Virus record (IMG/VR): IMGVR_UViG_3300015371_000024
Span: 1-64,000 of that record
Strand: one strand, 5' to 3'
From: a virus
Length of the DNA: 64,000 nt
Both the position numbers and the translations under genes were made by a program. This document shows, piece by piece, positions 5,735-24,237 of the stretch; the first letter of the stretch is position 1, and the number at the start of each line of letters is the position of its first letter. The notes beneath the pieces were generated by a model, which was not told the DNA's origin, did no database searches, and saw only the letters and a list, made by a program, of their open reading frames with translations.

Positions 5735-6084
5735 CAGCGGACCGCCATGCGAACGACGTAGATGTAGGAGGCGAGCCCTGCGACCGCACCCAACGCCACC
5801 GCGGCGATATCCCGAGCGCCGAGGCCACGCGGCGGTCGCGTCCAGAGGAAGTGATAGAAGAGCCAGACGAGGAACGCGCCCAGGAGGATCCGGACCGGCG
5901 CGTTGTTGATCTTCGACCACGTCCACTCGGAGAGTGTGTCATCGAGTCCGGATCTCCGGATCGCGAGCCACTCGACCAAGCCAGCGGCCACGATCAACGT
6001 CGGCCAGATCTTATGCCAGGTCTTCGGCGGAATGTTGAGCAGCGCGTTGCGCGCGTCCTGCAGGAATTGCGGAAGGATACTCAT
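5734..6084 (-). CDS. Holin-like protein with three membrane segments
   Basis: The 116-residue protein has three hydrophobic segments at about residues 26-43, 64-81 and 92-111, and ends with basic residues. Small size, three membrane helices and a place between the endolysin and the spanin-like gene fit a class I holin. Holins are too diverse for a family call by eye. The start at 6084 is preferred over one 21 nt upstream because it overlaps the preceding stop (ATGA), the usual junction in this operon. Confidence 0.55.
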   Translation of the reverse strand: MSILPQFLQDARNALLNIPPKTWHKIWPTLIVAAGLVEWLAIRRSGLDDTLSEWTWSKINNAPVRILLGAFLVWLFYHFLWTRPPRGLGARDIAAVALGAVAGLASYIYVVRMAVR

Positions 6085-6323
6085 AGCCCTCGCTCCATCC
6101 ACCACGCGCGGCCTTCGTCTCCGGCGTGTGGGTCAGGTGGTGGTGCTGTGTGATTGAATACCTCGATCAGTCGTGGGTCGTACAGCCGTCCCATGAGCGT
6201 CGTGATCCCACGCAGACGGGCCTTGCTCAAGCCTTGCTCGGCGTCTCGAGCCTTGATCGTGAGCTTCGGGCCGGTCTTCCCCATTCGGACGACCCTGCCG
6301 TTGTAGCGCACGTACCAGATCAT
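6081..6323 (-). CDS. Small hypothetical protein of the lysis region
   Basis: This 80-residue basic protein begins MIWYVRYNGRVVRMGKTG, a short beta-hairpin-like start, and then has a helix containing SKARLRG. Its start abuts the endolysin stop and its own stop overlaps the holin-like start, so it is translated as part of the cassette. No family was recognised. Confidence 0.6.
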   Translation of the reverse strand: MIWYVRYNGRVVRMGKTGPKLTIKARDAEQGLSKARLRGITTLMGRLYDPRLIEVFNHTAPPPDPHAGDEGRAWWMERGL

Positions 6324-6857
6324 TCACGCGGTCCGTGGGTGGAAGTAGCCGAGGATGTCCTTCCGCGTCACCGGACCGATATCGACCGCGATCCCGTTGT
6401 TGGACGCCGTGCCCGCGAACGACCGGTTCCCCTCGATCGTGACGAGCATGGGATCCATGCGTACCACGATCCCGATGTGGTGTGCGTCCATGTCATCCCG
6501 GACCGGCCCCTTCTTGCGAAGGCCGTAGAGTATCGCCGCGCCGATCACCGGCTCGCTCACGACATACGGGAGCCAGTAGTCGGTGCCCGCGTAGTTCATC
6601 GGGATGAGCGCGCCGCAGTCTGCGTACACCGCACCGGCCCAGATCGCACACCAGTAGGATCCAGGCGGCACGCCGGCGCGCTTCGCGTACTCATCGATCC
6701 GCTTCCCTCGGTTGGACCCGAGCGGTTGCTCCAGGATCCCGACGTCCTTGAGCGCGCGAATGACGATCGAATACTGCAGCTGCGTGCAGTTGACCTCGGG
6801 GTCGATCCACCCCGCGTCCGTCGGCCACGCGCCCGCCGGAAAGAGTTTGAGCGACAT
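6324..6857 (-). CDS. CHAP/NlpC-like cysteine endolysin
   Basis: The 177-residue protein carries the elements of a papain-fold peptidoglycan hydrolase. A Cys lies at residue 70 in GSYWCAIWAG. A His follows at 126-127 in DAHHIGIVV. A polar residue is near 142-144 in TIEGNRS. CHAP amidases have this order of Cys, His and Asn/Glu with these flanking strands. It most likely cleaves cell wall peptide bonds at the end of infection. It has no separate cell wall binding domain and no signal peptide, so release by a holin is expected. It lies between two membrane proteins of the lysis cassette. Confidence 0.7.
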   Translation of the reverse strand: MSLKLFPAGAWPTDAGWIDPEVNCTQLQYSIVIRALKDVGILEQPLGSNRGKRIDEYAKRAGVPPGSYWCAIWAGAVYADCGALIPMNYAGTDYWLPYVVSEPVIGAAILYGLRKKGPVRDDMDAHHIGIVVRMDPMLVTIEGNRSFAGTASNNGIAVDIGPVTRKDILGYFHPRTA

Positions 6858-7390
6858 CAGTCGGAGAGCTTCTTGTCAGCCGTGTCCGGATGGCTCCGAT
6901 CGACAATGAGCGGAGGCTCGACCACCGGCACGACGACCGCCGGGACCGCGAGCGCCGGTGCGTCAGCGGTCGTCCCGGATCCCTGCATTCGCGCCTGGTT
7001 CGCCGCACGGACCGAGGCCGGATTCACGATCGGTCGCTCCTGCGTCATGCTGTTCGTGGCGTCCGGAGAACCGCGGTCTTCCTCGATATTCCCGTCCCAC
7101 GACGTGTTCCGCTTCGTGCGGTAGCCCGCATACGCGAACCCGTGCGCGCCCGCGAGGAACGCGAGCCAGGATCCGACGATGATCGATGGCTCGATCTGCG
7201 AGAAGGACTTGGCCGTTCGCATGGCCTCGACCGCAGCGTGCAGGTTGATCTCGGTCATGTGATAGAACCACAGGACCGTGAGCAGGTCGAGCAAGCACAG
7301 GAACAGCATCCGGAACTGGATGGTGGGCAGTCCCGAGAGGATCGGCCACTTCGGGTCCATGACCCACGTCTTCGGGTTGTACCAGACCAT
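6857..7390 (-). CDS. Membrane protein of the lysis cassette, possible second holin
   Basis: The 177-residue product has two hydrophobic segments, about residues 24-45 and 68-90, followed by a long polar Pro- and Ala-rich tail. Two membrane helices plus a cytoplasmic tail next to an endolysin fit a class II holin or antiholin, but this is inferred from topology and context. The ATG at 7390 is preferred because it lies after a terminator-like hairpin. A GTG at 7426 would place the start inside that hairpin. No clear Shine-Dalgarno sequence precedes the ATG. Confidence 0.55.
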   Translation of the reverse strand: MVWYNPKTWVMDPKWPILSGLPTIQFRMLFLCLLDLLTVLWFYHMTEINLHAAVEAMRTAKSFSQIEPSIIVGSWLAFLAGAHGFAYAGYRTKRNTSWDGNIEEDRGSPDATNSMTQERPIVNPASVRAANQARMQGSGTTADAPALAVPAVVVPVVEPPLIVDRSHPDTADKKLSD

Positions 7391-8007: not shown

Positions 8008-10488
8008 CTACCGTGTCGGTGTCTTCGGTGGCTTGGTGTGCTTCGGCTCCTGGAGGCACGCATTGCGAGCGCAGAAGACCGAGTCGGCCCTTGTCGCTCG
8101 GAACGGTGGACGTCGCGCTGCTGCCGGTCTCCGAGCTCCGGCCACCGGCGCCGGGATGACCGCGGCCACGCCCGCCAGCTTCTGTGTGAGCGTGGGGATG
8201 TCAGCGCCGACGCCGGGGAAGCTCGGCGCCGAGTAGTCCGGCTGGAGCCCGATCTCCGCCTGGGTGAGCTTGTACGTGTTGCCAGGAGGATTCTTCGGTT
8301 GGTAGGTCGCGAGCACGCCCGAGACGACATTGCCCGAGTAGGTCCACTTCCCCGGACCGATGATGCAGTCGAGCGCCGCCATGTGCGTCGGCTGCGCGCA
8401 GTCCGCGGCCATCGTGTAATCGGTGTTCCCGGCGAAGATGTTCTTGTTCCAGTTGTTGTCGCCCCAATCGGTCTGCGCGCCACCGCTCAGGTAGAACGAG
8501 AACCCGCGGCCAGGCGTGTTGCTCACGAACGTGTTGTTCCGGATCCGGGTGTGCGTCGGACCGCTGTAGGTGGGGTTGAGCCACCCGGATCCCGTGATCC
8601 CGTTCGACGTGCCGACGTTCGTGAACAGGTTGTTGTACGCCAGCACGCGACTCACCGGATAGAGAATGCACGCCTGTGCCGTGCAGTCCCGCGCCTGGAT
8701 GTTGAGGCCGAGGTTGGAGTTGTTCACGCGGTTGTTCGTGAACGTGATGTCCGTCGAGCCCTGCCGAACCGTGTCCGACGTGCCGCCAGTCGAAGACTTG
8801 AAGACGACCGCGAACCCGATCTGGCTCGAGGCCCACGAATTTTCGAACACGTTGGCGTCGATCAAGAGCCGCTGTGCGTTCTTCAATTCGAAGATGTTCT
8901 TGATCGACCACCGTCCCTTCCACTCGGGACGCTTGTAGATGTGGTTCCGGCGGATCGTGATATCCGACGGTCGCATCTCGGAATTGGCCGGTCCGGCGCC
9001 ACCGAACATGATGTTCTCGCCCGCGCCCGCGGCGAAGTTGTTCTCGATATGGTACGGCCCGGGACCGTTCCAACTCTCGATCGCCTGGGAGTCGAAGCCG
9101 CTCGCGTGGCAGTCATCGATCCAATTATCGACCACCGCGATCTCGGACCCGTTGATCGCGAAGCATCGAATGAGCTCGCCGTCCACGGTCCCATGCACCC
9201 AATTGCGCCGGAAGATGATCTTCGATGGCGCGGTCGCGGGTGACGTGTTGCCATCGCTCGCACTCGCGCCGATCAGTAGCAGGTGGTAGACGAGCGTCGT
9301 CGCCTTCGCCGTGTCGCGGGCGATGTTCAGGTGCATGACCTGCCAGCAGTCCGCGCCAGGCGCGGTCGCGAACGCGTACTGGTTGTTCGCCTGGACGACC
9401 TGCGCGAACCCGAGCGCCTGAAGGGTGTCCATGCGCGTGCCGGGAACGTCGAGCACGCCCTTCGTCCGGACCGTGATCCACTCCGTGCTCGACGCACAGG
9501 AGTGCGCCGGAAGCGTGAAGTTGCCCTGCCACCGCGCTCCCGGCTGTAGCTCGAGACAGTCGCCCGACTGCGCGCCATTGAGCGCGGTCTGGAGATTCGC
9601 GCCCGCGAGCACGTCCACCGATCGCGTGCACGGCTTGGGCTGGAAGTCCGCGGTCTTGAGCGGGAGCGCCGGAAGGCTGTCGTCCGTGCCAGGCGATGGC
9701 TGCGGCGGACCGTTGACCGAGATCAGCTTGCTCGCCGACGACGTGCGTAAGAGTGAGTCCGTGACCAGGAGGCTCGTCGTCCGATCACCAGCTGACGGAT
9801 ACGTGTAGTCGAAGACGTTCGCCGTGATCGTGCTGCAGCTGGTCCCCGGACCGCAGTCCCACGCATACGTGAGGCGCGTCCCGGTCGAGGCCGAGCCATC
9901 GAAGTGACACTTGAGGCTCCCGGCAGGATCGCACGCGACCGTGAACGTAGCGACCGGCGCCGGCGGCGTCGGCGTCGGCGGGACCGGCGGCGCGTAGGAG
10001 ATCGACTTGGTCGCGGTCGAGGCTTTGCTGCCCGTGTCCGTGACTGTCAGACCCACCGTGTATGCGCCCGCCTTGCTGTAGGTGTGCTGCGCCGAGTTGC
10101 GCGCCGTCGAGGTAGCCCCGTCACCCCACGACCAGAAGAACGACAGGTTCGCCACGCCGCCATCGTCGGTCGAGGTAGATGTCGCCTTGGCGAGGCCGGT
10201 CGAGTCGTTGAGCGTGAGGTTGAATCCGGCGATCGGCGCCTTGTTCTCGGGCTGTGGCGGCGTCACCCCGTGCGGGACACGGAGCGCGGTCGCGATCGAG
10301 TCGATCTTGTTCCGGTCGCGGCCCGTGTTGCTTCGGTTGAGCCGCTGGCGGATCGCATTCAGCGAGTCGGCGCGAACAGAGTCCTGCTTCCCTGCCGTCA
10401 CGGTCTGTCCAGGGAGCGGCGTCGGCCATGTGTGCCAGAAGAAGAACGCGATCGCGATCCACCAGACACGGTGCATGAGCCAGATCAT
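8008..10488 (-). CDS. Secreted-looking PKD and right-handed beta-helix protein
   Basis: The 826-residue protein starts with a basic and hydrophobic stretch like a signal peptide (HRVWWIAIAFFFWHTW). Two PKD-type beta domains follow, at about 84-166 (FFWSWGDG, HTYSKAGAYTV) and 178-258. From about 288 to 750 there is a long right-handed beta-helix with repeated N-rich turns such as IENNFA, ITIRRNHIY and IRNNTFVSN. Beta-helices of this kind are common in pectate lyases and tailspike depolymerases. PKD domains are common in secreted bacterial enzymes. A polysaccharide-degrading or binding role is likely. The signal-like N-terminus is unusual for a virion spike and suggests either export or origin from a host secreted protein. 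Confidence 0.75.
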   Translation of the reverse strand: MIWLMHRVWWIAIAFFFWHTWPTPLPGQTVTAGKQDSVRADSLNAIRQRLNRSNTGRDRNKIDSIATALRVPHGVTPPQPENKAPIAGFNLTLNDSTGLAKATSTSTDDGGVANLSFFWSWGDGATSTARNSAQHTYSKAGAYTVGLTVTDTGSKASTATKSISYAPPVPPTPTPPAPVATFTVACDPAGSLKCHFDGSASTGTRLTYAWDCGPGTSCSTITANVFDYTYPSAGDRTTSLLVTDSLLRTSSASKLISVNGPPQPSPGTDDSLPALPLKTADFQPKPCTRSVDVLAGANLQTALNGAQSGDCLELQPGARWQGNFTLPAHSCASSTEWITVRTKGVLDVPGTRMDTLQALGFAQVVQANNQYAFATAPGADCWQVMHLNIARDTAKATTLVYHLLLIGASASDGNTSPATAPSKIIFRRNWVHGTVDGELIRCFAINGSEIAVVDNWIDDCHASGFDSQAIESWNGPGPYHIENNFAAGAGENIMFGGAGPANSEMRPSDITIRRNHIYKRPEWKGRWSIKNIFELKNAQRLLIDANVFENSWASSQIGFAVVFKSSTGGTSDTVRQGSTDITFTNNRVNNSNLGLNIQARDCTAQACILYPVSRVLAYNNLFTNVGTSNGITGSGWLNPTYSGPTHTRIRNNTFVSNTPGRGFSFYLSGGAQTDWGDNNWNKNIFAGNTDYTMAADCAQPTHMAALDCIIGPGKWTYSGNVVSGVLATYQPKNPPGNTYKLTQAEIGLQPDYSAPSFPGVGADIPTLTQKLAGVAAVIPAPVAGARRPAAARRPPFRATRADSVFCARNACLQEPKHTKPPKTPTR

Positions 10489-11171
10489 GGGTGCTTACCT
10501 CGGGCGTTGTTGTTCTGCTGTTGCTGAAAGACGACGAAGGCTTTCTGGAACATCTCCGGGAGCTCCTTGAGGATCTCCTTCGTCTGGACATGGAGCGCGT
10601 TATTGAGCCGGAGCTCCATCTCCGGGATGGCGTGGACGATCTGCGCCTGGCGAGTCGCGAACTCGGTCATCCGGGTATTGATCTGCCGACGGTCTTCCTC
10701 GGAGCGCGCCATGCGCTCTGAGAGACCCACCTGCTGCGTCGAGAGGAACGCGAGATCCTCTCGGAAGGACGCCTCCAACTCCTGGGTCCGCGCCTTGTTC
10801 TCATCGACACGACCGCCGAACCCATTGATCTTGTGATCAACGAGCGTCCGGAACTCTACGAGCGTGCGCTCGAGATCCCGCGTCGTGCGCTGGTCGGCGT
10901 CGATCCGCTGCTGTTCCGCGTTCTCCAGGAGGCCCTCGATCCGATTGACCTCGGTCGCGAGCTTGTTCTCGATGGTCTGCAATCGATCGAGCACCGGCTT
11001 GTTGTTCGCGCGCCAGAGCACCGTGACGAGTGCGACGGTACCGGAGACGAGTGCGACCCACCCGGAGATCGAGACCGGCCACACACCCTCGGGTCGCTCG
11101 GGCCGGAGTTGGACCTGTGCGGAGAGGATTGCTACGCGGACGAGTGTCTGGACCCACCAGAATTCGATCAC
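10485..11171 (-). CDS. Membrane-anchored coiled-coil protein
   Basis: The 228-residue protein has a hydrophobic segment at about residues 33-52 (ISGWVALVSGTVALVTVLW) and then a long heptad-rich coiled coil to the C-terminus. Its stop overlaps the start of the beta-helix gene (ATGA), so the two are co-translated and may act together. It could be an accessory exported or membrane factor. No family was recognised. Confidence 0.6.
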   Translation of the reverse strand: MIEFWWVQTLVRVAILSAQVQLRPERPEGVWPVSISGWVALVSGTVALVTVLWRANNKPVLDRLQTIENKLATEVNRIEGLLENAEQQRIDADQRTTRDLERTLVEFRTLVDHKINGFGGRVDENKARTQELEASFREDLAFLSTQQVGLSERMARSEEDRRQINTRMTEFATRQAQIVHAIPEMELRLNNALHVQTKEILKELPEMFQKAFVVFQQQQNNNARGKHP

Positions 11172-11265
11172 CAGAGCGGCTCCAATGCTGGTGACTCGCC
11201 AGACACCCCGGTCCGACGGGCAATCGGAACCTACATCAGCACCAACAATTGAGCCAACGTCGGAT

Positions 11266-12621
11266 TTAGGTCAGGCTCCCCGAGTAGAACGCCTGGGCGA
11301 CCCAGATCTTCTTCTCAGGCCACTGTGGCGAATCGGACGTGTAGTTGAACTTGTCCCAATTGTAGAACTTGAAGTTGGCGACGACGCCGCTGATGGGTGT
11401 CGGCACCACATCGGCGTCGTATGTCGCGAGCGGTGTTGCCGTGTTGATCTCTCCGGCACTCCCACCCGAGCACGCCGGATTGATGAACAATTCGGTCATG
11501 AGGTGCCATATCCCGCCGCCCGAATCACTGATGACACCGTGGATCGTGATTTCCACGAAATCCGCGGTGCCGACGATCAACGAGGCTGGACCGACGTCGT
11601 ATTCCGTGACACCAACGCTGCTGTCCGCTTCGCAACGGAAGATGACGCGTCCATCCCTGAGCAGAACGTTGCAATCCCCGGTGATCCCGTTCCCGCCGTG
11701 AATGAGATCGGACACCGTGAACCCGAAGCCGTCATCCGCCATCCACCCCGATTCGATCATGATCCGCATCGTCGTCCACACGGACCTGAACGCCACGCGC
11801 GATCCCGAGCCGCCCGTGTCACCGATCGGGTTGGAGAAGTACGTCCAAGATCCCCACCCAATGACATCCCAGATCGTGGACACGTCAGAGACCGCGACCC
11901 ACCGTCCGACCACGACCGGATTGCCGCAGAACGTGAGATCGGGATCGAAGGAGACGCCCTCGACGCTGCCGTCATCGCCGTACCACGACCAATAGAAGTT
12001 GGTCGATTCCGCTTCAACGAACGCGATGTACGTGGCTTCGTCGGCGTAGCGCGCGACTGAGAAGTCGTCTCCGTTGTAGATCCCCTCGGGCATCGGGCAT
12101 CCAATGCCATCGAGACAGAGCGGCGGCAGCGCATACCGGAATTGAGCGTGAACACCACCGAACACCGGATCAGCCGTCCCGTTCCCGCCTAACGCAACCG
12201 CATCCCACAGCACGTCGTTCGTGGCATCGGGATCAATGTTCACCCACCCCGATGACTTCTGCGGGCCGGTCGAGTCGATCGGAATGTCAACGGTTGCACC
12301 CGACACCCCCGGATCGATCGCCGATCCGCCAGCCGTCGTCCGGTACTTGAGGCGAGCCTTGGAACCAGCCGAACCTGCCGTCGTGACTTTCCCGATGACG
12401 CCGCGGACCTGCACAGCGCCGCGAGCGTTGAACCAGACTTGGCGCGACGTGAACGCCGTCTCGCCAGACGGCAGGTTCGTGACGGTGTGATCGCTGTCAT
12501 CGATCAGGAGATCGACATCCGGCACGGTGATCGTGCCGGTCACCACACCACCCGGAGTCGGGTTCTCCTCGGCGTTCGGGAAGTAGTCCGCCGGTGGACG
12601 GAATTCCTTGTTCCAACCCAT
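11266..12621 (-). CDS. Large hypothetical tail or fibre protein
   Basis: The 451-residue product is mostly beta-type with many Gly, Asp and aromatic residues (for example FYWSWYGDDGS and VVVGRWVAVSDVS) and ends KKIWVAQAFYSGSLT. It follows the hub-like tail gene after 11 nt. The composition fits a fibre or carbohydrate-binding virion protein. I do not recognise a family. The 94-nt gap downstream holds no feature I can name. Confidence 0.6.
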   Translation of the reverse strand: MGWNKEFRPPADYFPNAEENPTPGGVVTGTITVPDVDLLIDDSDHTVTNLPSGETAFTSRQVWFNARGAVQVRGVIGKVTTAGSAGSKARLKYRTTAGGSAIDPGVSGATVDIPIDSTGPQKSSGWVNIDPDATNDVLWDAVALGGNGTADPVFGGVHAQFRYALPPLCLDGIGCPMPEGIYNGDDFSVARYADEATYIAFVEAESTNFYWSWYGDDGSVEGVSFDPDLTFCGNPVVVGRWVAVSDVSTIWDVIGWGSWTYFSNPIGDTGGSGSRVAFRSVWTTMRIMIESGWMADDGFGFTVSDLIHGGNGITGDCNVLLRDGRVIFRCEADSSVGVTEYDVGPASLIVGTADFVEITIHGVISDSGGGIWHLMTELFINPACSGGSAGEINTATPLATYDADVVPTPISGVVANFKFYNWDKFNYTSDSPQWPEKKIWVAQAFYSGSLT

Positions 12622-12632
12622 TAGGATCTCAT

Positions 12633-14921
12633 TTAGGCGGGACCGGTGACGAGTGGGAGCGGCGAGCGCCAGAAGACCGGCAGCGTGGCGTCGAGCTCAA
12701 CGTTGCTCGCGTCATACGCGACCAGACGATAGTACTGACCGGCCTTCACGATCGCGTCATAGTACGGGAAGTCCGCCGGATCGAGGATCGCCGACACCGA
12801 CCACGGATCGTAGCGTCCCGAGTCCTTGGACTTCTGCACCTCGATGTGATCCGTGCCTCCAGGCACGCCGGTCTTGTCGATCTTGACCCGAGGACCGGGG
12901 AGCGTGAAGGACGTCTCGGCGGTCACCGTGAACGCCGTGCCCCACGGGTCGATCGTGACGAGCGTGCGCGGGCCGGACTGCGAGTTGGAGATCCGGAAGA
13001 CGCTATAGCGATAGGTCTTCTGCGCGTGGAGATCCGGATCCGTCCACGACCCGGATGTCGGACCGTCGAGCGTGATCGAGTCGATGTTCACGCCATCCCG
13101 GAGGATGTAGATCGCGCCGGTGCTGACCGAGACCGCCCAATCGACCTGCACGGTCGTCGCGTCGATGCGCGTGACCGAAAGGTCCGTGAAGTCGCCGGGA
13201 TCGCTCCCCGTGTCCACCGTCGTCCCGACCAGCCGGAGCTCGTCGCCGAAGGTACCGTCGAAGGTCTCAGGCTTGACGATCACCGTTCGAATGATCGCCT
13301 GACCGTTCCGGCCAGTGGGAATCGGCTGGAAGCAGCGCCAGAACTTGATGCCGTTGTACGGGTCGCCATCGACCGGCGTGGCGTCTCCCGGCCACACGTA
13401 GTTGCCCTCGGTCGAGAGCCGTCCCTCGGGTCGCTCGATCGTCCCGGCCTTGAAGGCATCGCTCCCGACCGGCGGCCACTCCGGCACCAGCGTCCCCGGT
13501 GCGTTCTCTCGCGCCCAGATATGGATCCGCCGGATGTTCTTGCCCGCGAAGAATGCGGGCCACACGCACCCGTTGGTCTCGCCGTCCCAGAGCTCCCCGC
13601 CGTACATCGTGGCCTCGACACCCATGCCGAGTGCCAGGAACAGCGAATCGACCTCCGGCGCCTTCGGGCCTTCGCCTTCCCGGATGATCCAGTTCTTCGT
13701 GAAGCCCGCGACCGTGCCGCGCGTTTCGAACGCCGTCCGCGTCTCTTTCGCCTTTCCCCACGTATGCGTGATCCGCTGCACGGCTTGCAGCTGGTTCGTG
13801 GTGTACTGGTCGCCGTTCGCGACGAGCTCGAAAAGATCGTAGACGTGGAAGGCCCACGCGAAGAGCGTCGTGAATCGCTTCTCGGCCTTCGGGAACGCGA
13901 GATCCGCGAGCGCCGTATCGAGGAAGGTCTTGGCCTCCGCCGGCGTATCGATCTGGCTTGTCGCGGCCTCCTTGAACTCGAAATACCGCTCCGTGTAGCG
14001 GGTGATCGAGTCCGGGACATCCGCCGCGACGTAGGAGACCACCTTCTTCTGCTGGTCCCTGAAGTAGCACCGGCCCTTGTTCCGGACGTCGTCGGTGTTG
14101 ATGTCGAAGTCCGGATCCGCGTCGTAGTTGTCGGCTGAGAAGGTGAAGTCCGGCGTCGTGTTCCCCCGCGGCGGCAGGAACAGCCGGAGCTCCATGTCGT
14201 CCGAGGAATTCCACATGTACCGGACGTTGGCGCCGATCGTGTTGATCGCGAGATCCCGGAGGCCCGTGAGAAGTCGCGGACGCTGGAAGTTGAACTTCTT
14301 GAGTTTGACCCCTGCGGTGACGATCGCCGCATCCACGACCAGCGTCACGGCGCCCGTGCCGAGGTTGTCATCGAGGATCTGCTGCATCACGGTCTCCATC
14401 GCGTCACCCGCGTCGGACCCGTAGACCCGCTCGTCCTCGACCTGCTTCGTGAGCAGCTTGTGCCCCAAGTCCGCGATCTGGAGCGTGATCGTCTTCTTCA
14501 TGCTCACGGCGACCACGTAGCCGTCGAACATCTTGTGCTGGCTCGAGTCCGTGCCGTCGAGCCGTGCCGTGGTGCCGTAGCACCGGATCCGCCGCATCCC
14601 GTCGATCAGCGGCGCATAGGCGCTAGAGTCGTCCACGTTCGCCGGACTCGACTCAACGAGCGGCGCGATCGAGATCGAGGCACCGCTGGCCGCAACCAAC
14701 GACTTGGCGAGCTCAATGCTCCCGGTCCACGTCGGCGCGTCGGAGTCGTCGGTGATCGAGCCGCGGATGACGAAGTCGAGGTTGGAGAACCCCGTGCCCG
14801 ACAGGTTCGTCAGTGCCTTCCACGTCCCGTCGATGTTCTGGATCTCGACCGTGTCGATCTTGATCGATCGAGACGCCAGTCCTAAGACCGTGAGCTCGGT
14901 ACTGGTGGCACTACGAGGCAC
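12633..14921 (-). CDS. Tail hub-like protein with fibronectin type III-like C-terminal region
   Basis: The 762-residue protein begins with beta-rich domains. A region at about 280-380 (YTERYFEFKEAATSQ, LYDLFELVANGDQY) resembles hub proteins of siphovirus tail tips. Residues about 590-690 contain fibronectin III-like strands (TVQVDWAVS, YRYSVFRISN). Hubs close the tail tube and carry fibres. Its place directly after the tape measure and a small tail protein is the classic one. The precise family is inferred from gene order. Confidence 0.6.
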   Translation of the reverse strand: MPRSATSTELTVLGLASRSIKIDTVEIQNIDGTWKALTNLSGTGFSNLDFVIRGSITDDSDAPTWTGSIELAKSLVAASGASISIAPLVESSPANVDDSSAYAPLIDGMRRIRCYGTTARLDGTDSSQHKMFDGYVVAVSMKKTITLQIADLGHKLLTKQVEDERVYGSDAGDAMETVMQQILDDNLGTGAVTLVVDAAIVTAGVKLKKFNFQRPRLLTGLRDLAINTIGANVRYMWNSSDDMELRLFLPPRGNTTPDFTFSADNYDADPDFDINTDDVRNKGRCYFRDQQKKVVSYVAADVPDSITRYTERYFEFKEAATSQIDTPAEAKTFLDTALADLAFPKAEKRFTTLFAWAFHVYDLFELVANGDQYTTNQLQAVQRITHTWGKAKETRTAFETRGTVAGFTKNWIIREGEGPKAPEVDSLFLALGMGVEATMYGGELWDGETNGCVWPAFFAGKNIRRIHIWARENAPGTLVPEWPPVGSDAFKAGTIERPEGRLSTEGNYVWPGDATPVDGDPYNGIKFWRCFQPIPTGRNGQAIIRTVIVKPETFDGTFGDELRLVGTTVDTGSDPGDFTDLSVTRIDATTVQVDWAVSVSTGAIYILRDGVNIDSITLDGPTSGSWTDPDLHAQKTYRYSVFRISNSQSGPRTLVTIDPWGTAFTVTAETSFTLPGPRVKIDKTGVPGGTDHIEVQKSKDSGRYDPWSVSAILDPADFPYYDAIVKAGQYYRLVAYDASNVELDATLPVFWRSPLPLVTGPA

Positions 14922-15321: not shown

Positions 15322-18300
15322 CTAGTTATCGATTCCCGGCAGCGCGGTCGATCCCGTGCGCTGGAACTTCCACGTCCGGAGCTCCTCGATGATCCGCTCC
15401 GCGAAGCTCTCGGAGTCCTCACCCGGAGCCTGTGTCACAATCATATCGCCGGTCCACGTATTCGACACCGAGCCACGCGGGCCGAGCGGTGGCGTCGGGT
15501 TGACATCGATCCCGATCGGTGGCTCCGGAATCGTCGGCGGAATGTCCGGCGGGAGCGTGTTCGGATTGAACGGATCCGCCGACAGGAACCGCACTTGGTT
15601 GGTCTTGAACCAGTCCGGGACGTTCGTGATCGCCGCGTTCGCGTCGTTCACCGTGTCCGTCAGTTGATCGAGGCCGGTCTCAAACCCTTCGATGATCCGA
15701 ATGAGATCGTCCTTCCCGAACAGTGCACCGAACGCCTTCGCGTCGAGCGCGCCCGAGAGCAGCGCCTTGGTCATCGCCTGAACGGCCTTCTTGACCGCCG
15801 CCGGATCCCCGAGATCCACGCCGGCGAAGAACTGCTTGAAGAGCTCGGGCGAGAGCTTCGCGAGGAGCGCCGCTTGGTCCTGGATGATCTGCGCCGGTGT
15901 CTGCTCGACGTCGAAGACGTTGTTGAACAGATCGATCTTCTTCTGCTGGTCATCGATCGTGTTCGCGAACTTGGTCGCCGCCTCCGCCGCGAGATCGATC
16001 GCCTGGGCGACCTGTTCGAATGCCGCGACGATGATCCGGCCACTGGAGTCGAGCAGCGTGATGCCGAACTGCTTGGCGATCTCGTTGATCTCGGCGAACG
16101 TCGTCCCGAACTGCGTGATGACCTTGTTGAACAGGTCGATGCCGATGGCACCGGACTTGGGAAGCGCCGCCGCGGAGAGTGTGCCGGACTGCTGGAGCGC
16201 GGCGCGGATCCGTGTCTGGTCGCCGAGCGCGCCGGTGAAGCCCCGCAGCTGCGAGGACAGGAGCGACAGCTGCTGGTTGTTCGCCTGAAGGATCTTGTCG
16301 TGCTCCGTCTGCTCGGCGCTCCGGCCCGTGAAGGCTTCCACGATCGAGCGCACGACGTTGAACGCGCTCGAGGCGATCCCGATGCCCGCCGAGATGAGCG
16401 CGAGCATCTCGGAGCCTGTCCGACCGACTTGCGAGACATCAACGCCCTTCCGGTCCGCTTCCTCCTTCCGTCGCTTATCGCTCTCCGCCTGAACGCGTTT
16501 GAATTCCTGCACGCTGGCGATCAGCACGCCGGTGGACTGGATCGCGTTCAGGATGTTCTTGTTCGTGATCCCGAACGCATCGGACAACTGACGAATGATC
16601 CCGACCAGGAGTCCGAGCCGGATCAGTCGCCGCGTCCCGCGATCGACCTTCTCGGCGAAGTCCTGTGCCTGACCGCCGGCACGCTTGTACGCCTGGCCGA
16701 ACTGCTCCATGATCTTGGCGATCGCCTCTTTGCTCACGCCCGCGGCCACCAGCGCATCGATGATCGCTTGCCGGAGCCGACCGAGATCCCCGAGCGCGCG
16801 GACCATGTTGCGGTGCCCTTCCTCGGCCTGGACCGGATCGCCGAAGAGTTGGGCGTTCTCCATCTGCGCCTGAGCCGCGTTGATCGCCGCCGCGATCTCC
16901 TGAATCTTCGGGACCGCGTCCGGGAACATCTGCTCAAAGATGTTCGGCGTGATTTGGTTGATCTCCTTCTGAGTCGCGGCCAGCTTCTGGAGCGACTTCG
17001 TCACATCCTCACCACGCAGCCGCTGACCGACGATCTTCTCGTTCAGCCGGAACTGGAGATCGTTGAGCTCTTTGAGCAGTCGCTTGCCTTCCTCCATTTT
17101 CTCGAGCGGGATGCCGGTCGAGAGGATCTGACCGCCACCCTGACCGGACTCCTGCAGCGCCTTAATGCGCGCGATGACGTTGTCGATCTTGGCGAACGTC
17201 TCGATCGGCACCATCGTCTTGAACTGCTCGCGCAGGAGGCCGACGTCCGACAGGAGCGCACGGAGACGCGACTGCAATTCGGCGTCACCCTGCGTGCCGA
17301 TCTTGGTCAGTGTCTGCTGCGCCTGTTTCTCTAACTCCGCGAGCGCCGTGAACGCCTCCTGCTGCGAGGCGAAGTCTTCGGTCTTTGACGCGAGTTGCAG
17401 CTGCTTCCGGATCTCCGAGAGCTTGGCCGAGAACTGGTCGAGCTTGTCTTTGCCCTCCGCGGTCTGGATGATCCCCTTCATCGCGCTCGCGAGCTTGTTC
17501 GCGCCCGCGATCTGGATATCGAGGTTCTTGATGATCTTCTGGTTGGCTGGATCGGAGCGCGCCAGGTTGAACTGCTTGAGCAGCACGTTGACGTTGGAGA
17601 GCGTCTCGCGGGCCTTCTCGAGCCCCTCGTTCATCAGATCGATATCGCCCACCTTCCGACCGACCGTGAACGCCTTCGCCGCCTCGGCGCCGGCGGCACG
17701 GAGCCGCGAGAGCTCAAAGACGTTCTGCCGGATCTGCTCGGTCAGGAGACCGGCCTTGGTGTCCGCCTCGATCGCCTTCATCGATGCCGCGAATTCCTTC
17801 GCGAACTTGGCCGCATCCTGCTCCTGCTTCGTGATCTTGACGAGCTCCTCATCGACGCGGGCGATCTCGTCCTGGTAGCGCTTGACCTCCTTCTGGAGCG
17901 CCACGAAGTCGTCGCGCTGCTTCTTGGTGCCGCCCTGCGGGCCGGAGGTGATCGCGGCCACGCCGAGTTGCGAGACCTGCACGGTCGTCTCGACATGCAC
18001 GCCTTCGGCGAGTTTCTTCGCGAGTTGGAGTTGCGTCTCGTTGAGCGCCGAGGTGAGCGCGATCTTCGCCGCCTCGAGCCCCTTCTTCGACATCCCGACG
18101 ATCGCGGCTTCGAACGTCTGCGTCTCCTTGCTCGCCTTCTGCGTGGCGACCGTGTACGCGATGATTGCAGCCGTGACGAGCCCGATCGCGATCGCCACCG
18201 GACCGCCGATGGCCGCGATCGCACCGAGGCCGAGCGCGCCGGCGCCCGCAGCGCCGCCAGCCGCCGTCGCGAGACTCGCCGCCAGTGCCGCCGCGCGATA

Positions 18301-21300
18301 GATGACGAGCGCGCGGGTGATGTTGGAGATGAGGAGCAGGAGCGGACCGATCGTCGCCGCAGCGATCGCGAGGCCGACGACCCAATTCCGGGTGTGCTCC
18401 GAGAGTCCGACGAAGGACTCTGCGGCCTTCGTGATCATGACAAGGAAGCGCGTGAGGTAGGGCAAGAGCACGCCGCCGAGCGCGATCCCCGCCTCTTTGA
18501 GCCGGGACTGGAAGAAGAGCAGTTTGACGTTGAAGGTGTCCTGCGACTGCGCGAGCGTCCCCTCGATGAGCCGTGTGCGCTCCATGATGACGAGGTAACC
18601 CGCCTGGACCTTCTGGAGCGTGTTGAGTTGTGCACCGGTCCGGGCGATCCCCTCCCGGTAGGCACGGTCCGCGATCGTGTTGTCATCGATCTCGATCCAG
18701 AGCTTCTTCAATTCGCGCGACTGTCCGACGAGGCCGTTGATCACGGCATTGAACGCACGGTCCGAGGACACGCCCGAGAAGAGCGAGATGTTCTTCGTGA
18801 CCTTGATGAGGTTCGTGCTCATCTCGGCCACCTTCTCGCTCGAGAGGCCGATCGGGATGATGAGCTCCCCGAGCCGAGACGCCATCTGCTGCAATTCGGA
18901 CGACGTCGCCGGGATCTCGTTCCGGAGCGCGTTCAGGTTCCGCTGCAGTTGCACCGAGGCGGGACCGAAGGAGATCTGGAGCCGCTTAGCCGACTGCTCG
19001 GCGTCACCCGCGAGCTTGGTCGCACCGACACCCGCCGCCGCGATCGGGAGCGTCACGAACTTGAGGAACGTCGAGCCAATGCTCTTCCCGATGGCCGCGA
19101 CCCGGGTGAGTGAAGCGTTGGATCCACTCGACATCGCGGCGTCGAAGTTCTTGAAGAACGTCGTTCCCGCGGTCGTCCCGCCCTCGCCCGTCGTCTTGTC
19201 GAGCGTGGTCATGAGACGCTTGACTTCGCGCTCGGCACCCGCGAGCGCCTTCGCCATCTCCGCCTCGATCGCCGCCGGCGCGGCCACGCCCAAGTTCGTC
19301 GCCTTGGGCGTCACCACCGACGTCTGTGGCGGGAGCACCGCACGACGGACACGGTCCGCCACGCCCCGCAGCTGACTGAAGAGCCCACCCACGAACGAGG
19401 TTCCGGCGTCAACGCCGCGCCGCGCGAAGTCCACGACCGGCACCAGGACGTTGTCCCGGATCTTGGCCGATACGCCGCGCACAGCAGTCAGCACGCCACC
19501 AGCCAGCGATCGCCCGATCTGCGCGCCGCGGGCCAAGACGTCGGCCACGTTCCGCGGAACGAGCGCGTCCCGGACCTTGAGGCCCGCGCCCACGACCGAG
19601 GCGACCACGCCACCAGCCAACGCCACACCGATCGCCGCGCCCGCCGTCGCGACATCTGCAGCCGCCGGCAGAATCGTCTGACTGACCACCCGTCCGGCGC
19701 CGACGACAGCCGAGGTGATCCCCTGCGCGATCCCGCGCCCGATCGCCGTGCCTCGAGCGACTGCGTCACCCACGACCGGCGTAATCGCGTCCCGCACGCG
19801 GATCGAGGTACCACGGACCGCCGAGAAGACGCCGTCCGCGAGCGCGCGACCAGCGGCGATCCCGCTTCGGGTCATCTCGCCGATCGGAACGACGATCGCG
19901 TCCCGGAAGAGACCCGCCTCTCTCCGGATGGCTGTGGCGATACCGCCAACGAGGCTTCGACCGATGAGCGTTCCGGTCTGCAGCACCCCTTGCACCGCTG
20001 GTACGACGGCATCCCGGACCCTGTTGCCAACCCCGCGGACAGTCGTAAGTAGTGAGGTTGCGAGAGCGTTCCCGGCCTCGATCCCACGACGCGCCATATC
20101 CGCCGCCGGGAGGAACACGGACTGCTTTAGTCGATCGGTCACGGCGCGCAGCGGCGCGATGATTCCGGCGCCAAGCTGACGTCCGGCCTCGATCCCTCGA
20201 CGTGCCATCTCGGTGGCCGGAACCACTACCGACGCCAGGATCCGGTCGCTCACCCCACGGAGGGAGCTCACGACACCCGAGGCGAAGCTCCGCCCGATGT
20301 CCACGCCCGTCCGCGCCGCGTCGGCCACCCGGACGAAGATCGCGTCCCGAACGAAGCTCGAGACGCCACGGACCGCCGTCAGCACGCCGCGGGAGAACCC
20401 GAGCCCCATCTGCGCGCCGCGCGCGGTGGCGTCGGCCACTCGCGGGACGACTGAATCGCGGACGCGCTCGGCAGTGCCACGGGTCGCCGTCGTCACACCG
20501 CTGCTGAAGGACCGTCCCATCTGTACGCCACGCTGTGCAGCGTCGGCCACACGCGGGATCACGGAGTCTCTGACACGGTCCGCGACACCACGCACCGCTG
20601 TCACGGCGCCACTCGCGATCGCAGACCCGATCTGGGCGCCGCGGACGGTCGCCGCCGTCGCCTGTGGGATGATCGCGTTCCTGACTCGCTCGGCAACGCC
20701 CCTGACCGCTGAGACAGCGCCGGATGCCAGTGAGCGACCGATCTCGATGCCCCGTTGCGCCGCCGTCGTGGCCGCAGGAATGACCGAACCACGGATCCGG
20801 TCACCGACCCCTCGGACCGCCGTGATCGCGCCCACAGCGAGCGAGCGGCCAATCTCTAGACCTCGTGCCGTGGCGTTGCTCACCGTCGGGATGACGGCAT
20901 CGCGCCCCCGCTGCGAGACGCCGCGCACGGTCTGCAGCACGCCGGTGACGAGTGACCGCCCGATCTCTAGACCGCGGGCGACCGCGGATGCGACCGGCGG
21001 AATGACCGAGCTCGCGATCCGAGTAGCGACTCCGGCCACCGACGACAGCGCACCGGCGGCGATCGCGCGCCCGATCTCGGCACCCCTCGACGCCGCAGCG
21101 GCCACCGGCGGCACGATCGCCGCGCGCACGCGATCCGAGACCCCACGGACTGCGGACATGAGGCTCGTCGTGAGCGATCGCCCGATCTCGAGCCCGCGCG
21201 CGGTCGCCGCGGCCACGCGCGGTACGACCGCTTCCCGGATCCGGTCCGCGACTCCGCGGATCGAAGACAGGACGCCGGAGACGAGGTTCCGGCCAATCTC

Positions 21301-22788
21301 GATCCCGCGAGCCGAGGCGTTCGTGATCACCGGCAGGATCGAGCTCCGGACGCGTTCCGCCACGCCGCGCATGGACTCGAGCACACCCGAGGCGACATCG
21401 CGCCCGTAGTTCTGGCCGCGGATGATGGCGTCATCGACCCGTGGCAGGAGCGCGTTCCGGACGCGCTCAGCGGTCCCGCGCACGGCGTTCAGGAAGCCAC
21501 TCGCGAGGTTCCGGCCCGCATCAAGCCCGCGCCGCGCCGCGTCGGTAACGCTAGGGATCACCGAGTCGCGGACACGGTCGCGGACGCCGCGCGTGGCGGA
21601 CACCAGTCCGCTGACGAGCGCGCGGCCCGCCTCGATGCCGCGGACTGCGGCAGAAGCGGCAAGCGAAGCCGGAATGAAGAGCGCCGCGCCGGCGCCGCCA
21701 GCAATCACGCGAGCGACGGAGGCGAGCCCCGAGATGAACGCACGACCGACGTCAGCACCACGCCGTGCGGCATTGGCGACCGTCGGAATGATCCGGTCGA
21801 GCAAGCGAGTGGCGTTGCCAGCCGCGGCGACCTGTCGCGCGACAGCCTGAGTCGCGGCGCCGACCACGTCCGTCACGCCTTCGCCGACCCGTGCCCGCTC
21901 TTCCTGGATCCCCTGCTTGAACTGCCGGAACGCCTCGGTCACGCGGTTGCGAGCAGCGCGCGGGTCGAGTCCACCGGCCAGGTCGAGCTTCGTCCGGTTG
22001 ATCTCCTGCTGGAGCTTGTTCCGGAGCGTGGCGATCCGGCCTACGGACTCCTGGAACGCCTTCTCCGCCTCGGTGCGCGAGAGACCGACGCCGAACCCAC
22101 GGGGATCCACCTGCGATTCCATCGCCTGACGGAGTGCGGGTCGCATCTGCCCGCGGCGTTCCATCTCATCGATCTTCGCCAGGAGCTCAGCGTTCCGGTT
22201 GGCGAATGCCTCGGCACGCCGGAGCGACCGCTCAGCGACCGAGATGCTGCCACGGGCGATCTTGGTGTCGATGTCCTGGAGAGCGCGCGTGGTGCGCGTG
22301 TTGAGATCGTTGAGGAAGTTGTCCGCCAGCTTGACGTTCCGCGCGCCGCGGTCGAGCGCCTGGAACCCTTTGAGACCACCCTTCTCGATGCCCTGCAGTA
22401 ATTCGTTCTCGATCTCTGTGCGGAGCCCGCCGAACGCCTTGATCTGGGACTTGGCGCCCGCGATCGTCGCTTGCATGAGCTCCTGGCCGCGACGACCGAA
22501 TTCCTCCTTGTCGATCGCGCCGGACTTGACCAGATCCTTGAGGGCTTTCTGCTGCTGACGGAACCCGGAGACGATCTGGTCCGACATCTCGCGGGCACGG
22601 GCGATCTGCGCTTCGAACCCGCGGTCGGGTCCGAAGAACCCTTCGGCTGGCTTCAAGGCAGCCATCGCCCTGTTGGCTTTCTCGATCTCCCGCGCAAAGG
22701 CATTCACGCCGCGCGTGGAGTCGGCCAAGGTGGACTTGAGGGATCGGTTCTGTGCTTCGATCTCGACAACCAGTTTGGCGATCGTCAT
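15322..22788 (-). CDS. Tail tape measure protein with a tandem 37-residue repeat array
   Basis: The 2488-residue protein sets tail length and is carried in the tail lumen. Residues 1-320 are helical and coiled coil. Residues about 328-1160 consist of tandem units, mostly of exactly 37 residues, with the pattern R-(V/I)-R-D-x-(V/I)-(V/I)-P ... R-G-x-x-(I/A)-G-R-x-(L/F)-x-x-G ... A-V-R-G-V-(A/S). After the array come a region like TP901-type tape measures (about 1200-1440), a hydrophobic segment near 1465-1545 that could enter the membrane, and further coiled coil. The stop codon is TAG. Its place after the chaperones and before the hub is diagnostic. Confidence 0.92.
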   Translation of the reverse strand: MTIAKLVVEIEAQNRSLKSTLADSTRGVNAFAREIEKANRAMAALKPAEGFFGPDRGFEAQIARAREMSDQIVSGFRQQQKALKDLVKSGAIDKEEFGRRGQELMQATIAGAKSQIKAFGGLRTEIENELLQGIEKGGLKGFQALDRGARNVKLADNFLNDLNTRTTRALQDIDTKIARGSISVAERSLRRAEAFANRNAELLAKIDEMERRGQMRPALRQAMESQVDPRGFGVGLSRTEAEKAFQESVGRIATLRNKLQQEINRTKLDLAGGLDPRAARNRVTEAFRQFKQGIQEERARVGEGVTDVVGAATQAVARQVAAAGNATRLLDRIIPTVANAARRGADVGRAFISGLASVARVIAGGAGAALFIPASLAASAAVRGIEAGRALVSGLVSATRGVRDRVRDSVIPSVTDAARRGLDAGRNLASGFLNAVRGTAERVRNALLPRVDDAIIRGQNYGRDVASGVLESMRGVAERVRSSILPVITNASARGIEIGRNLVSGVLSSIRGVADRIREAVVPRVAAATARGLEIGRSLTTSLMSAVRGVSDRVRAAIVPPVAAAASRGAEIGRAIAAGALSSVAGVATRIASSVIPPVASAVARGLEIGRSLVTGVLQTVRGVSQRGRDAVIPTVSNATARGLEIGRSLAVGAITAVRGVGDRIRGSVIPAATTAAQRGIEIGRSLASGAVSAVRGVAERVRNAIIPQATAATVRGAQIGSAIASGAVTAVRGVADRVRDSVIPRVADAAQRGVQMGRSFSSGVTTATRGTAERVRDSVVPRVADATARGAQMGLGFSRGVLTAVRGVSSFVRDAIFVRVADAARTGVDIGRSFASGVVSSLRGVSDRILASVVVPATEMARRGIEAGRQLGAGIIAPLRAVTDRLKQSVFLPAADMARRGIEAGNALATSLLTTVRGVGNRVRDAVVPAVQGVLQTGTLIGRSLVGGIATAIRREAGLFRDAIVVPIGEMTRSGIAAGRALADGVFSAVRGTSIRVRDAITPVVGDAVARGTAIGRGIAQGITSAVVGAGRVVSQTILPAAADVATAGAAIGVALAGGVVASVVGAGLKVRDALVPRNVADVLARGAQIGRSLAGGVLTAVRGVSAKIRDNVLVPVVDFARRGVDAGTSFVGGLFSQLRGVADRVRRAVLPPQTSVVTPKATNLGVAAPAAIEAEMAKALAGAEREVKRLMTTLDKTTGEGGTTAGTTFFKNFDAAMSSGSNASLTRVAAIGKSIGSTFLKFVTLPIAAAGVGATKLAGDAEQSAKRLQISFGPASVQLQRNLNALRNEIPATSSELQQMASRLGELIIPIGLSSEKVAEMSTNLIKVTKNISLFSGVSSDRAFNAVINGLVGQSRELKKLWIEIDDNTIADRAYREGIARTGAQLNTLQKVQAGYLVIMERTRLIEGTLAQSQDTFNVKLLFFQSRLKEAGIALGGVLLPYLTRFLVMITKAAESFVGLSEHTRNWVVGLAIAAATIGPLLLLISNITRALVIYRAAALAASLATAAGGAAGAGALGLGAIAAIGGPVAIAIGLVTAAIIAYTVATQKASKETQTFEAAIVGMSKKGLEAAKIALTSALNETQLQLAKKLAEGVHVETTVQVSQLGVAAITSGPQGGTKKQRDDFVALQKEVKRYQDEIARVDEELVKITKQEQDAAKFAKEFAASMKAIEADTKAGLLTEQIRQNVFELSRLRAAGAEAAKAFTVGRKVGDIDLMNEGLEKARETLSNVNVLLKQFNLARSDPANQKIIKNLDIQIAGANKLASAMKGIIQTAEGKDKLDQFSAKLSEIRKQLQLASKTEDFASQQEAFTALAELEKQAQQTLTKIGTQGDAELQSRLRALLSDVGLLREQFKTMVPIETFAKIDNVIARIKALQESGQGGGQILSTGIPLEKMEEGKRLLKELNDLQFRLNEKIVGQRLRGEDVTKSLQKLAATQKEINQITPNIFEQMFPDAVPKIQEIAAAINAAQAQMENAQLFGDPVQAEEGHRNMVRALGDLGRLRQAIIDALVAAGVSKEAIAKIMEQFGQAYKRAGGQAQDFAEKVDRGTRRLIRLGLLVGIIRQLSDAFGITNKNILNAIQSTGVLIASVQEFKRVQAESDKRRKEEADRKGVDVSQVGRTGSEMLALISAGIGIASSAFNVVRSIVEAFTGRSAEQTEHDKILQANNQQLSLLSSQLRGFTGALGDQTRIRAALQQSGTLSAAALPKSGAIGIDLFNKVITQFGTTFAEINEIAKQFGITLLDSSGRIIVAAFEQVAQAIDLAAEAATKFANTIDDQQKKIDLFNNVFDVEQTPAQIIQDQAALLAKLSPELFKQFFAGVDLGDPAAVKKAVQAMTKALLSGALDAKAFGALFGKDDLIRIIEGFETGLDQLTDTVNDANAAITNVPDWFKTNQVRFLSADPFNPNTLPPDIPPTIPEPPIGIDVNPTPPLGPRGSVSNTWTGDMIVTQAPGEDSESFAERIIEELRTWKFQRTGSTALPGIDN
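19310..21807 (-). repeat. About 22 diverged tandem repeats of 111 bp inside the tape measure gene
   Basis: Unit starts fall every 111 nt. Twenty-one consecutive units run from 21576 to a partial unit at 19353, one of them 38 residues long. Degenerate units of 37 and 40 residues precede them from about 21807. The units differ at many positions, so the array is old and under protein-level constraint rather than a recent expansion. Confidence 0.9.
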
Positions 22789-22823: not shown

Positions 22824-23707
22824 CTACTTGTGCTTGCCGAACCCCTTCTGGACGACCGGTTCGCGGGGCGCTGAGTCTTCCGCGCGTTGTAAGCCTTCCC
22901 CGGGCTTCCGCTTCATGGCGTCCTTGTACGACAACTCCTTGGCTGCAATGAGGACGTTCACTTCCTCGTCTTCAGGATCCTCACACCGTATGCCGTCGTC
23001 TCGCCGCAGTTTCTGTACGACACCGATGTAGAGATCCTGGTTCTTCTCATACTGCCAATTCTGCTCAACGGCCTCCCACCAGAGGTAGTTGCCCATGCGA
23101 TCCAGCTGCTGCATGGAATACTCGTCAACGACCTCCGGTGGCTGATGGACCCAATCCTTCGCTATCGAACAAATGAGCCGCTCGAGACCGTTGAACCAGA
23201 GTTTCCCTCCGATTCCTCTTCATCCTTCGGCTTCTGGTAGAGGTTCCGGATCTCTTCGACCAAGAACTCGGTGACCGAGGCCGGGAAGTTGAGCACGGTC
23301 GCCAGATCGTTCTTCGGGTGCCACATCTGCGCCCCGTCCTTCGTGATCGAGGCCGCGATGATGAGCTTCGCGTCCTGCTCGGACGTATCGACCCGCTGGT
23401 CCGCCGCCTTGCCCTTGATGAGCGACGACTGGATCCGCGAATGCTCGCCGCCGCGGAGCTCCTTGATGATCCACTTGGCGCCCGCCCATTCGGTGTAGGC
23501 CGGGAAGGTCAAGGTCTTCGTCCGCGACGGAATCTTGGTCGCCTTGATCGCGTGGTCGCGACCCATGAACCCGTCGGCGTCCGTCTCGATCTTCGCTTGG
23601 CCGTTCGTGGCCGGTGGCAGCACCGCGCTCCCGACGTTGCCGGCGGCAGTCGAGAACGGTGTGATCGGTGTGACCTTCTCGTCGTTCTTGTTCGATTCGT
23701 CTGGCAT
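22824..23707 (-). CDS. Tail assembly chaperone GT, made by programmed -1 frameshift
   Basis: After the in-frame sequence G GGA AAC at 23207-23201 the -1 frame stays open to 22824. It gives a fusion of 294 residues: 169 from gene G and 125 from the downstream frame. The new part begins LWFNGLERLICSIAKDW. The G/GT arrangement directly upstream of the tape measure gene is known from lambda and many siphoviruses. There the fusion binds the tape measure and recruits tail protein. An internal ATG at 23114 exists but would skip 30 plausible residues, so frameshifting is preferred. Confidence 0.85.
23162..23707 (-). CDS. Tail assembly chaperone G
   Basis: The 181-residue product ends in an acidic Ser-Gly-rich tail just after the slippery site. 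The central part (FPAYTEWAGAKWIIKELRGGEHSR) and the helical C-terminal half fit tail chaperones. ATG at 23707 is chosen because GGGGA precedes it. A GTG at 23749 lacks a ribosome site. It lies between the major tail protein and the tape measure, as expected for this family. It is present in assembly, not in the virion, by analogy with lambda gpG. Confidence 0.85.
   Translation of the reverse strand: MPDESNKNDEKVTPITPFSTAAGNVGSAVLPPATNGQAKIETDADGFMGRDHAIKATKIPSRTKTLTFPAYTEWAGAKWIIKELRGGEHSRIQSSLIKGKAADQRVDTSEQDAKLIIAASITKDGAQMWHPKNDLATVLNFPASVTEFLVEEIRNLYQKPKDEEESEGNSGSTVSSGSFVR
23201..23207 (-). promoter_or_regulatory. Slippery heptamer GGGAAAC for -1 ribosomal frameshifting
   Basis: The heptamer is in the exact phase X XXY YYZ relative to gene G (GAG GGA AAC). 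It differs from the lambda G/GT site only in its last base. The zero frame continues 13 codons to a TAG and the -1 frame is open for 126 codons. Confidence 0.85.
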
Positions 23708-23802
23708 CGTTCGATTCCCCGCTAGGGTGAGAAGTGGTGAGGTGAACACTGGCCGGTTCCGGCCCTAGCCCGTGGCCGACCAGTGCTCCCCGAGCCCATT
23801 CC

Positions 23803-24237
23803 TTACGGAATGTCCTCTCGCTCGGTGAGGGCGTTGAAGTCGTAGCTGATTTCCTGCAGCCCTTCAGGCGCTGCAGACTCTCGGATGGAACCAACCCGTC
23901 CGATCAGCTGCCAACCGTTGGTGCCATCGCGCAGCACCTGGATGGCGATCACATCGTCCGCGGCTTCCGCCGTGTCGAGGATCCCCTGACCCGTGTCGCC
24001 CACGGACTTGAAGCCCGAGATCGTCAGGGTCTGTTCCCGTACTCCCGGAATCGAATACTGCACGCTGCGACCGAACACGGCGACGTTCGTCGTCGGTCGG
24101 TTGGCGTTGTAATCGACCCGGTTCATGTCGGACACCGGTGAGAACGTACCAGGCGTGTAGACCCCGCCCACCGGTCCCGTGGTGGTCGCAGCTTTGATGA
24201 TGAGCTCCGACCCCATGATCACTGTGCCGAGTGCCAT
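23803..24237 (-). CDS. Major tail (tube) protein
   Basis: The 144-residue protein is beta-rich (LGTVIMGSELIIKAA, IQVLRDGTNGWQLIGRV) and lies directly upstream of the chaperone pair. Size and gene order fit a siphovirus tube protein. An AGGAG sequence lies about 10 nt before the ATG. The gene follows a palindromic non-coding gap, which fits separate high expression. The fold call is inferred from context. Confidence 0.7.
   Translation of the reverse strand: MALGTVIMGSELIIKAATTTGPVGGVYTPGTFSPVSDMNRVDYNANRPTTNVAVFGRSVQYSIPGVREQTLTISGFKSVGDTGQGILDTAEAADDVIAIQVLRDGTNGWQLIGRVGSIRESAAPEGLQEISYDFNALTEREDIP

Follow-up and report, generated by a model that had tools for sequence, protein, structure and literature searches.

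The tape measure gene and its surroundings

The window discussed here (the whole 64,000-nt stretch of DNA that was analyzed) comes from an IMG/VR virus record of 68.6 kb. Putative genes on its minus strand follow the usual order: terminase large subunit, major head protein, a protein with a weak match to tail tube proteins, and tape measure protein (TMP). The last is an open reading frame of 2,488 aa (22788..15322, minus strand, with its ATG at 22788) containing a long tandem array of 37-residue repeats. The features of this region, in window coordinates, are:

15322..22788, minus strand: tape measure protein, 2488 aa (PHROG TMP families, core homology)
22669..22788, minus strand: putative N-terminal cap, aa 1-40, beta-like strand then helix (weak N-cap HMM match)
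21820..22668, minus strand: linker from cap to array, aa 41-323, no repeats (self-similarity)
19312..21819, minus strand: 37-residue repeat array, aa 324-1159, 22 units and a partial one (HMM, self-similarity)
19594..21591, minus strand: eighteen exact 37-residue units, aa 400-1065, with a phase-locked hydrophobic stripe (spacing, harmonic analysis)
18124..19179, minus strand: conserved TMP core, aa 1204-1555 (blastp to TMPs; TIGR01760 near cut-off)
23162..23749, minus strand: tail assembly chaperone-like gene, gpG-like (position, frameshift; no family match)
23201..23207, minus strand: GGGAAAC slippery heptamer in the chaperone frame (sequence)
22824..23219, minus strand: -1 frame extension, gpT-like, 131 aa (reading frame)
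23803..24237, minus strand: candidate major tail (tube) protein, 144 aa, pI 4.4, net charge -7 (PHROG 1407, weak, E 0.005)

From its sequence, the array-bearing protein can be firmly assigned as a TMP, as an initial annotation of this DNA had proposed. It is matched by PHROG TMP families, and its core (aa ~1204-1555) has ~25-30% identity by blastp to TMPs of Methanoculleus, Flavonifractor, Gordonia, and other phages; against the core alone TIGR01760 scores 27.9 bits, slightly short of its cut-off of 28.8, while searches of solved structures with the core gave weak, unspecific matches only. The gene between those for the tube protein and the TMP has no family match, but it contains a GGGAAAC heptamer, correctly framed for a -1 shift into the 131-aa extension. 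A frameshifted chaperone gene directly upstream is the classic arrangement for TMP genes. The full order (tube protein, frameshifted chaperone, TMP) is thus found here, the tube protein by weak match only. Core homology, PHROG matches, and the upstream frameshift site all agree on the assignment. An HMM for the N-terminal cap has its best match at aa 1-40, with a weak score; the alternating motif of this cap is found in 44 of 46 relatives.

Several other genes in the window may be mentioned. Two neighboring proteins (693-1715 and 1719-2771, minus strand) have DUF6923 or beta-propeller-like matches; an 826-aa protein in the tail module (8008-10488, minus strand) has two PKD domain stretches, and is perhaps an adhesion protein; and a PHROG 16701 peptidase is encoded near the terminase gene (35354-36106, minus strand).

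Extent, age, and distribution of the repeat array

A profile HMM built from twelve units finds 23 domains over aa 324-1159, corresponding to 22 units plus the 14-residue start of another; the second unit is matched in its later part only. The array thus occupies window positions 21819-19312 (minus strand), close to the 21807-19310 of the initial annotation, and its 836 residues are 33.6% of the TMP, in agreement with the earlier estimates of about 22 units and one third of the protein. The consensus unit, RGVADRVRDAVIPRVADAAARGIEIGRSLASGVLSAV, likewise bears out the RVRD..(I/V)P and GRSL.SG..(S/T)AVRGV motifs first noticed. G22 and G26 are invariant (20 of 20 units), and P13 or P14 is present in almost all. 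The distance from one G22 to the next is exactly 37 residues in 19 of 21 cases, the exceptions being 40 (units 1 to 2) and 38 (unit 21, with one inserted residue), so that eighteen consecutive units (aa 400-1065) have no indel. Self-alignment, which had been suggested as a check on the periodicity, gives a strong peak at lag 37 (z = 28 in the array region) with further peaks at 74, 111, and 148; periods of 11 and 40 are absent from the top lags. The repeat is therefore confirmed. It is confined to this region: the flanking parts of the TMP have no lag-37 self-similarity (z 1.7, 2.4, and -0.7), and the unit is not repeated anywhere else in the window. Tandem Repeats Finder detected no 111-bp array in the DNA, so the array is visible only in the protein. 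It is rich in Arg, Gly, Ala, and Val (107 Arg, net charge +56, GRAVY 0.38), with no Trp, and with 1.7% Phe but no Phe-dominated column. It matched no enzyme or known domain, and no solved structure was found for it.

The array is old. Regular units share ~40% protein identity, falling from 0.44 to 0.40 over separations of 1 to 10 units and slightly lower beyond; where two units have the same residue, the codon is also the same 38.9% of the time, whereas the codon usage of the gene predicts 40.0%. Silent sites between units are saturated, and with neighboring units hardly more alike than distant ones there is no trace of recent gain or loss, duplication, or conversion; recent tandem duplication in particular is ruled out by the codon saturation. 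Over this time adjacent units have accumulated 340 replacements but no gaps, where 4.5 would be expected at the gap rate of the core (P about 0.01; this is a rough control, as the core among relatives is a different domain and the comparisons are non-independent). The absence of gaps despite this age suggests that the 37-residue period is probably under selection.

A search with a three-sequence alignment of the core (a seven-sequence alignment being too diverged) found 80 IMG/VR loci that share it. None of the 80 has 37-mers or any counterpart of the array. Their complete TMPs (39, counted as distinct by length and core position) have 591-1042 aa, and the core begins at aa 12-229 (median 33), as against ~1204 here, with about 1200 aa before it. 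Those core relatives inspected that do have repeats have 11-mers after the core. Four core-sharing TMPs (L047, L061, L064, and L065) have a 54-residue periodicity at about aa 371-530, possibly another long TMP repeat.

Unit alignments made from non-overlapping unit blocks (MAFFT on overlapping blocks collapsed the register) found no relatives of the array in IMG/VR, GTDB contigs, or plasmids, the contig scans using short degenerate patterns that diverged arrays may escape. The C-terminal part of the TMP likewise found none in IMG/VR or GTDB contigs, and no relatives were found by a 762-aa tail gene. The terminase search returned a single contig, 11.3 kb long, whose terminase is 100% identical (L001, IMGVR_UViG_3300000440_000471, 5212-7017), perhaps a second, partial record of the same phage. 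Capsid proteins at ~40% identity were found in two further contigs, L007 and L008 (39% in the latter); the TMP of L008 has no match to the array-bearing one. By eye, L008 also encodes a 766-aa tail-module protein with Kelch-like repeats (GKIYVFGG...YDP; 10729-13029) and, at the contig end, an IS30-type transposase-like protein (1-888).

Helical phase and a possible tail ruler

AlphaFold predicts two units (9 in-register alignment rows) to form one helix over residues 3-73, with moderate confidence (pLDDT 70.6); a five-unit model is also helical, but with very low confidence (pLDDT 33). The hydrophobicity of the array has a corresponding period. The 10th harmonic of 37 carries 40% of its power (permutation P 0.0002; 0.005 if any harmonic is allowed), and the peak at free frequency over aa 400-1065 is at 97.3 degrees, or 3.70 residues per turn; treated in the same way, the 11-mer array of a relative yields 3.67. 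The phase of this stripe agrees across all 18 regular units (resultant 0.98), a coherence that homologous units would share partly by descent. G22 and G26 lie no more than 22 degrees off the stripe axis. Charge has no clear 10-turn periodicity. The equation of 37 residues with 10 turns is weak by itself, since 89% of repeat lengths from 25 to 59 are commensurate with a helix and the number is not diagnostic; phase coherence is stronger evidence for a helix. The repeats most likely join into one long helical rod, which the prolines at P13/P14 of nearly every unit could kink or break. In coiled coils, hendecads have 3.67 and pentadecads 3.75 residues per turn, and values above 3.63 give a slightly right-handed coil (PMC4786415); the stripe of the array, at 3.70, lies between the two and above this limit.

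Taken together, we consider it probable that the array forms a long stretch of helix in the tail ruler, built of 37-residue units of 10 turns and housed in the lumen of the tube. In phage 80alpha, the neck structure is reported to place the TMP N-terminus next to the head, where it binds the tail completion protein, with a positive TMP inside a negative lumen (PMC11661146). By analogy, the array would lie within the tube between a head-proximal N-terminal cap and the conserved core. Each unit would contribute 10 turns of continuous alpha-helix at 3.70 residues per turn, with a stripe centered on V7, V11, V15, A18, G22, G26, L29/A30, V33, and V37 that continues through successive units. Several TMP chains (three in 80alpha) might pack along this stripe, most closely at the invariant G22xxxG26, forming a slightly right-handed coiled coil. 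With a net charge of +56 the array is basic, and its arginines may face an acidic lumen, the candidate tube protein of the same genome being acidic (net -7). The tube would then polymerize along the rod until it is covered. Deletion of 347 aa from the TP901-1 TMP shortens its tail by 53 nm (PMC5099701), and phiCbK has a TMP of 1964 aa and a tail of 300 nm (PMC3556154), both giving ~0.15 nm per residue. At this rate, each repeat, if extended, would probably add about 5.5 nm of tail, the array ~125 nm (~836 x 0.15), and the whole TMP would predict a tail no longer than ~370 nm. Both the TMP identity and the earlier suggestion of a ruler-like array are supported.

The initial annotation also took the strict period to mean that each unit has a fixed length along the tail. 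Such a length is plausible for a continuous helix (~5.5 nm per unit), but the period itself fits helix phase at least as well: other lengths would put the stripe out of phase, and the need to keep a 10-turn stripe in phase makes a unit-by-unit measure of the tail unnecessary. Since helix phase alone can maintain regular spacing, a strict period is no proof of a ruler tick. The most literal form of the tick, in which each unit docks on one tube ring so that 37 residues span the distance from ring to ring, would account for the strict period and for a basic array near an acidic candidate tube protein. Siphophage rings rise by ~3.85-4.06 nm (PMC8718954, PMC5717097), so that units of ~5.5 nm and rings would be mismatched unless the helix were compressed, and on these dimensions we judge this reading very improbable.

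It was also suggested that the ruler may be extensible, tail length scaling with repeat number; in the strong sense, units would be readily gained or lost and their number would tune tail length. Blocks of 44-aa repeats do vary in the TMPs of Bacillus prophages (PMC3271669), and tail length in TP901-1 is set by TMP length (PMC5099701). The array itself argues otherwise: codons randomized between units (0.389 vs. 0.400) and neighboring units hardly closer than distant ones leave no recent duplication visible, and no relatives with other unit counts were found. The claim is unsupported here, and extension in this strong sense seems quite unlikely. A further possibility is that the array has no part in measuring, the rest of the TMP setting tail length, and is a functional N-terminal extension, basic and amphipathic, that binds DNA or membranes at ejection or forms a channel. 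Its many arginines and hydrophobic average would suit such a role; relatives manage without the segment; and the P23-45 TMP has an RNA polymerase in its N-terminal part (PMC10770324). The lack of any matched enzyme or domain speaks against it, however, as does position, since a strictly periodic helix between a typical N-cap and core must sit in the tube, provided that the cap faces the head as described for the neck of 80alpha. We think it unlikely.

If the array is instead part of the ruler rod, as preferred here, a more speculative elaboration is that, besides acting as a spacer, its 37-residue lattice sets the register, parallel TMP chains being locked together by an identical GxxxG notch that recurs every 10 turns. 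This appears decidedly improbable, but if true, notched chains could join either in register or with an offset of whole units, so that their alignment would be stepwise, and pieces of the rod would be interchangeable; the 80alpha chains are reported to be out of register at the head end.

Comparison with other tape measure proteins

By sequence, most TMPs show no physical units. The repeats that are known are mainly 11-mers marked by Trp or Phe, with 44-aa repeats also described (Belcaid et al. 2011, PMC3271669); TP901-1 has repeats of 11 and 18 residues and p2 an 11-11-18 pattern (PMC5099701). Like the present array, these are tandem, fixed-length helical units, and the 11-mer stripe, near 3.67 residues per turn (11/3), is close to the 3.70 found here. 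The array differs in its 37-residue unit, rich in Arg, Gly, Ala, and Val, without Trp and with Pro in nearly every unit; it shares with TMPs of the type described by Belcaid et al. neither the period (11 or 11-11-18) nor the Trp/Phe markers. It also differs in position: in L088, L018, and Gardnerella phage AB1 the 11-mers are downstream of the core, while here the array is upstream. The 40-residue repeat of lactococcal phage p2, known to us by description (PMC5099701), also comprises whole helix turns (11, by our arithmetic); the 37 residues of the array make 10, and can be read as 11-11-15, but with no aromatic marker.

The only INPHARED match to the array, at E 0.5, is the TMP of Streptomyces phage Galactica, which has a repeat region of similar helical composition. 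Its units are Trp-marked and have eleven residues, and the resemblance could be one of composition. A homologous core and a similar N-terminal cap are shared by the TMPs of Methanoculleus virus L4768, Flavonifractor phage Cormatin, Gordonia phages Kita and Powerball, and the 80 IMG/VR loci; the complete IMG/VR ones are much shorter (591-1042 aa) than the 2488 aa found here. In the neck structure of 80alpha (PMC11661146), the TMP is also basic and helical in an acidic lumen, with its N-terminus head-proximal; no 37-residue array is seen in the passages that describe it.

A long and strictly periodic array offers a simple repetitive peptide for structural studies of TMP helix packing inside the lumen. 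Repeats in TMPs were already known; what is new here is a 37-residue Arg/Gly unit without Trp, and its position upstream of the core.
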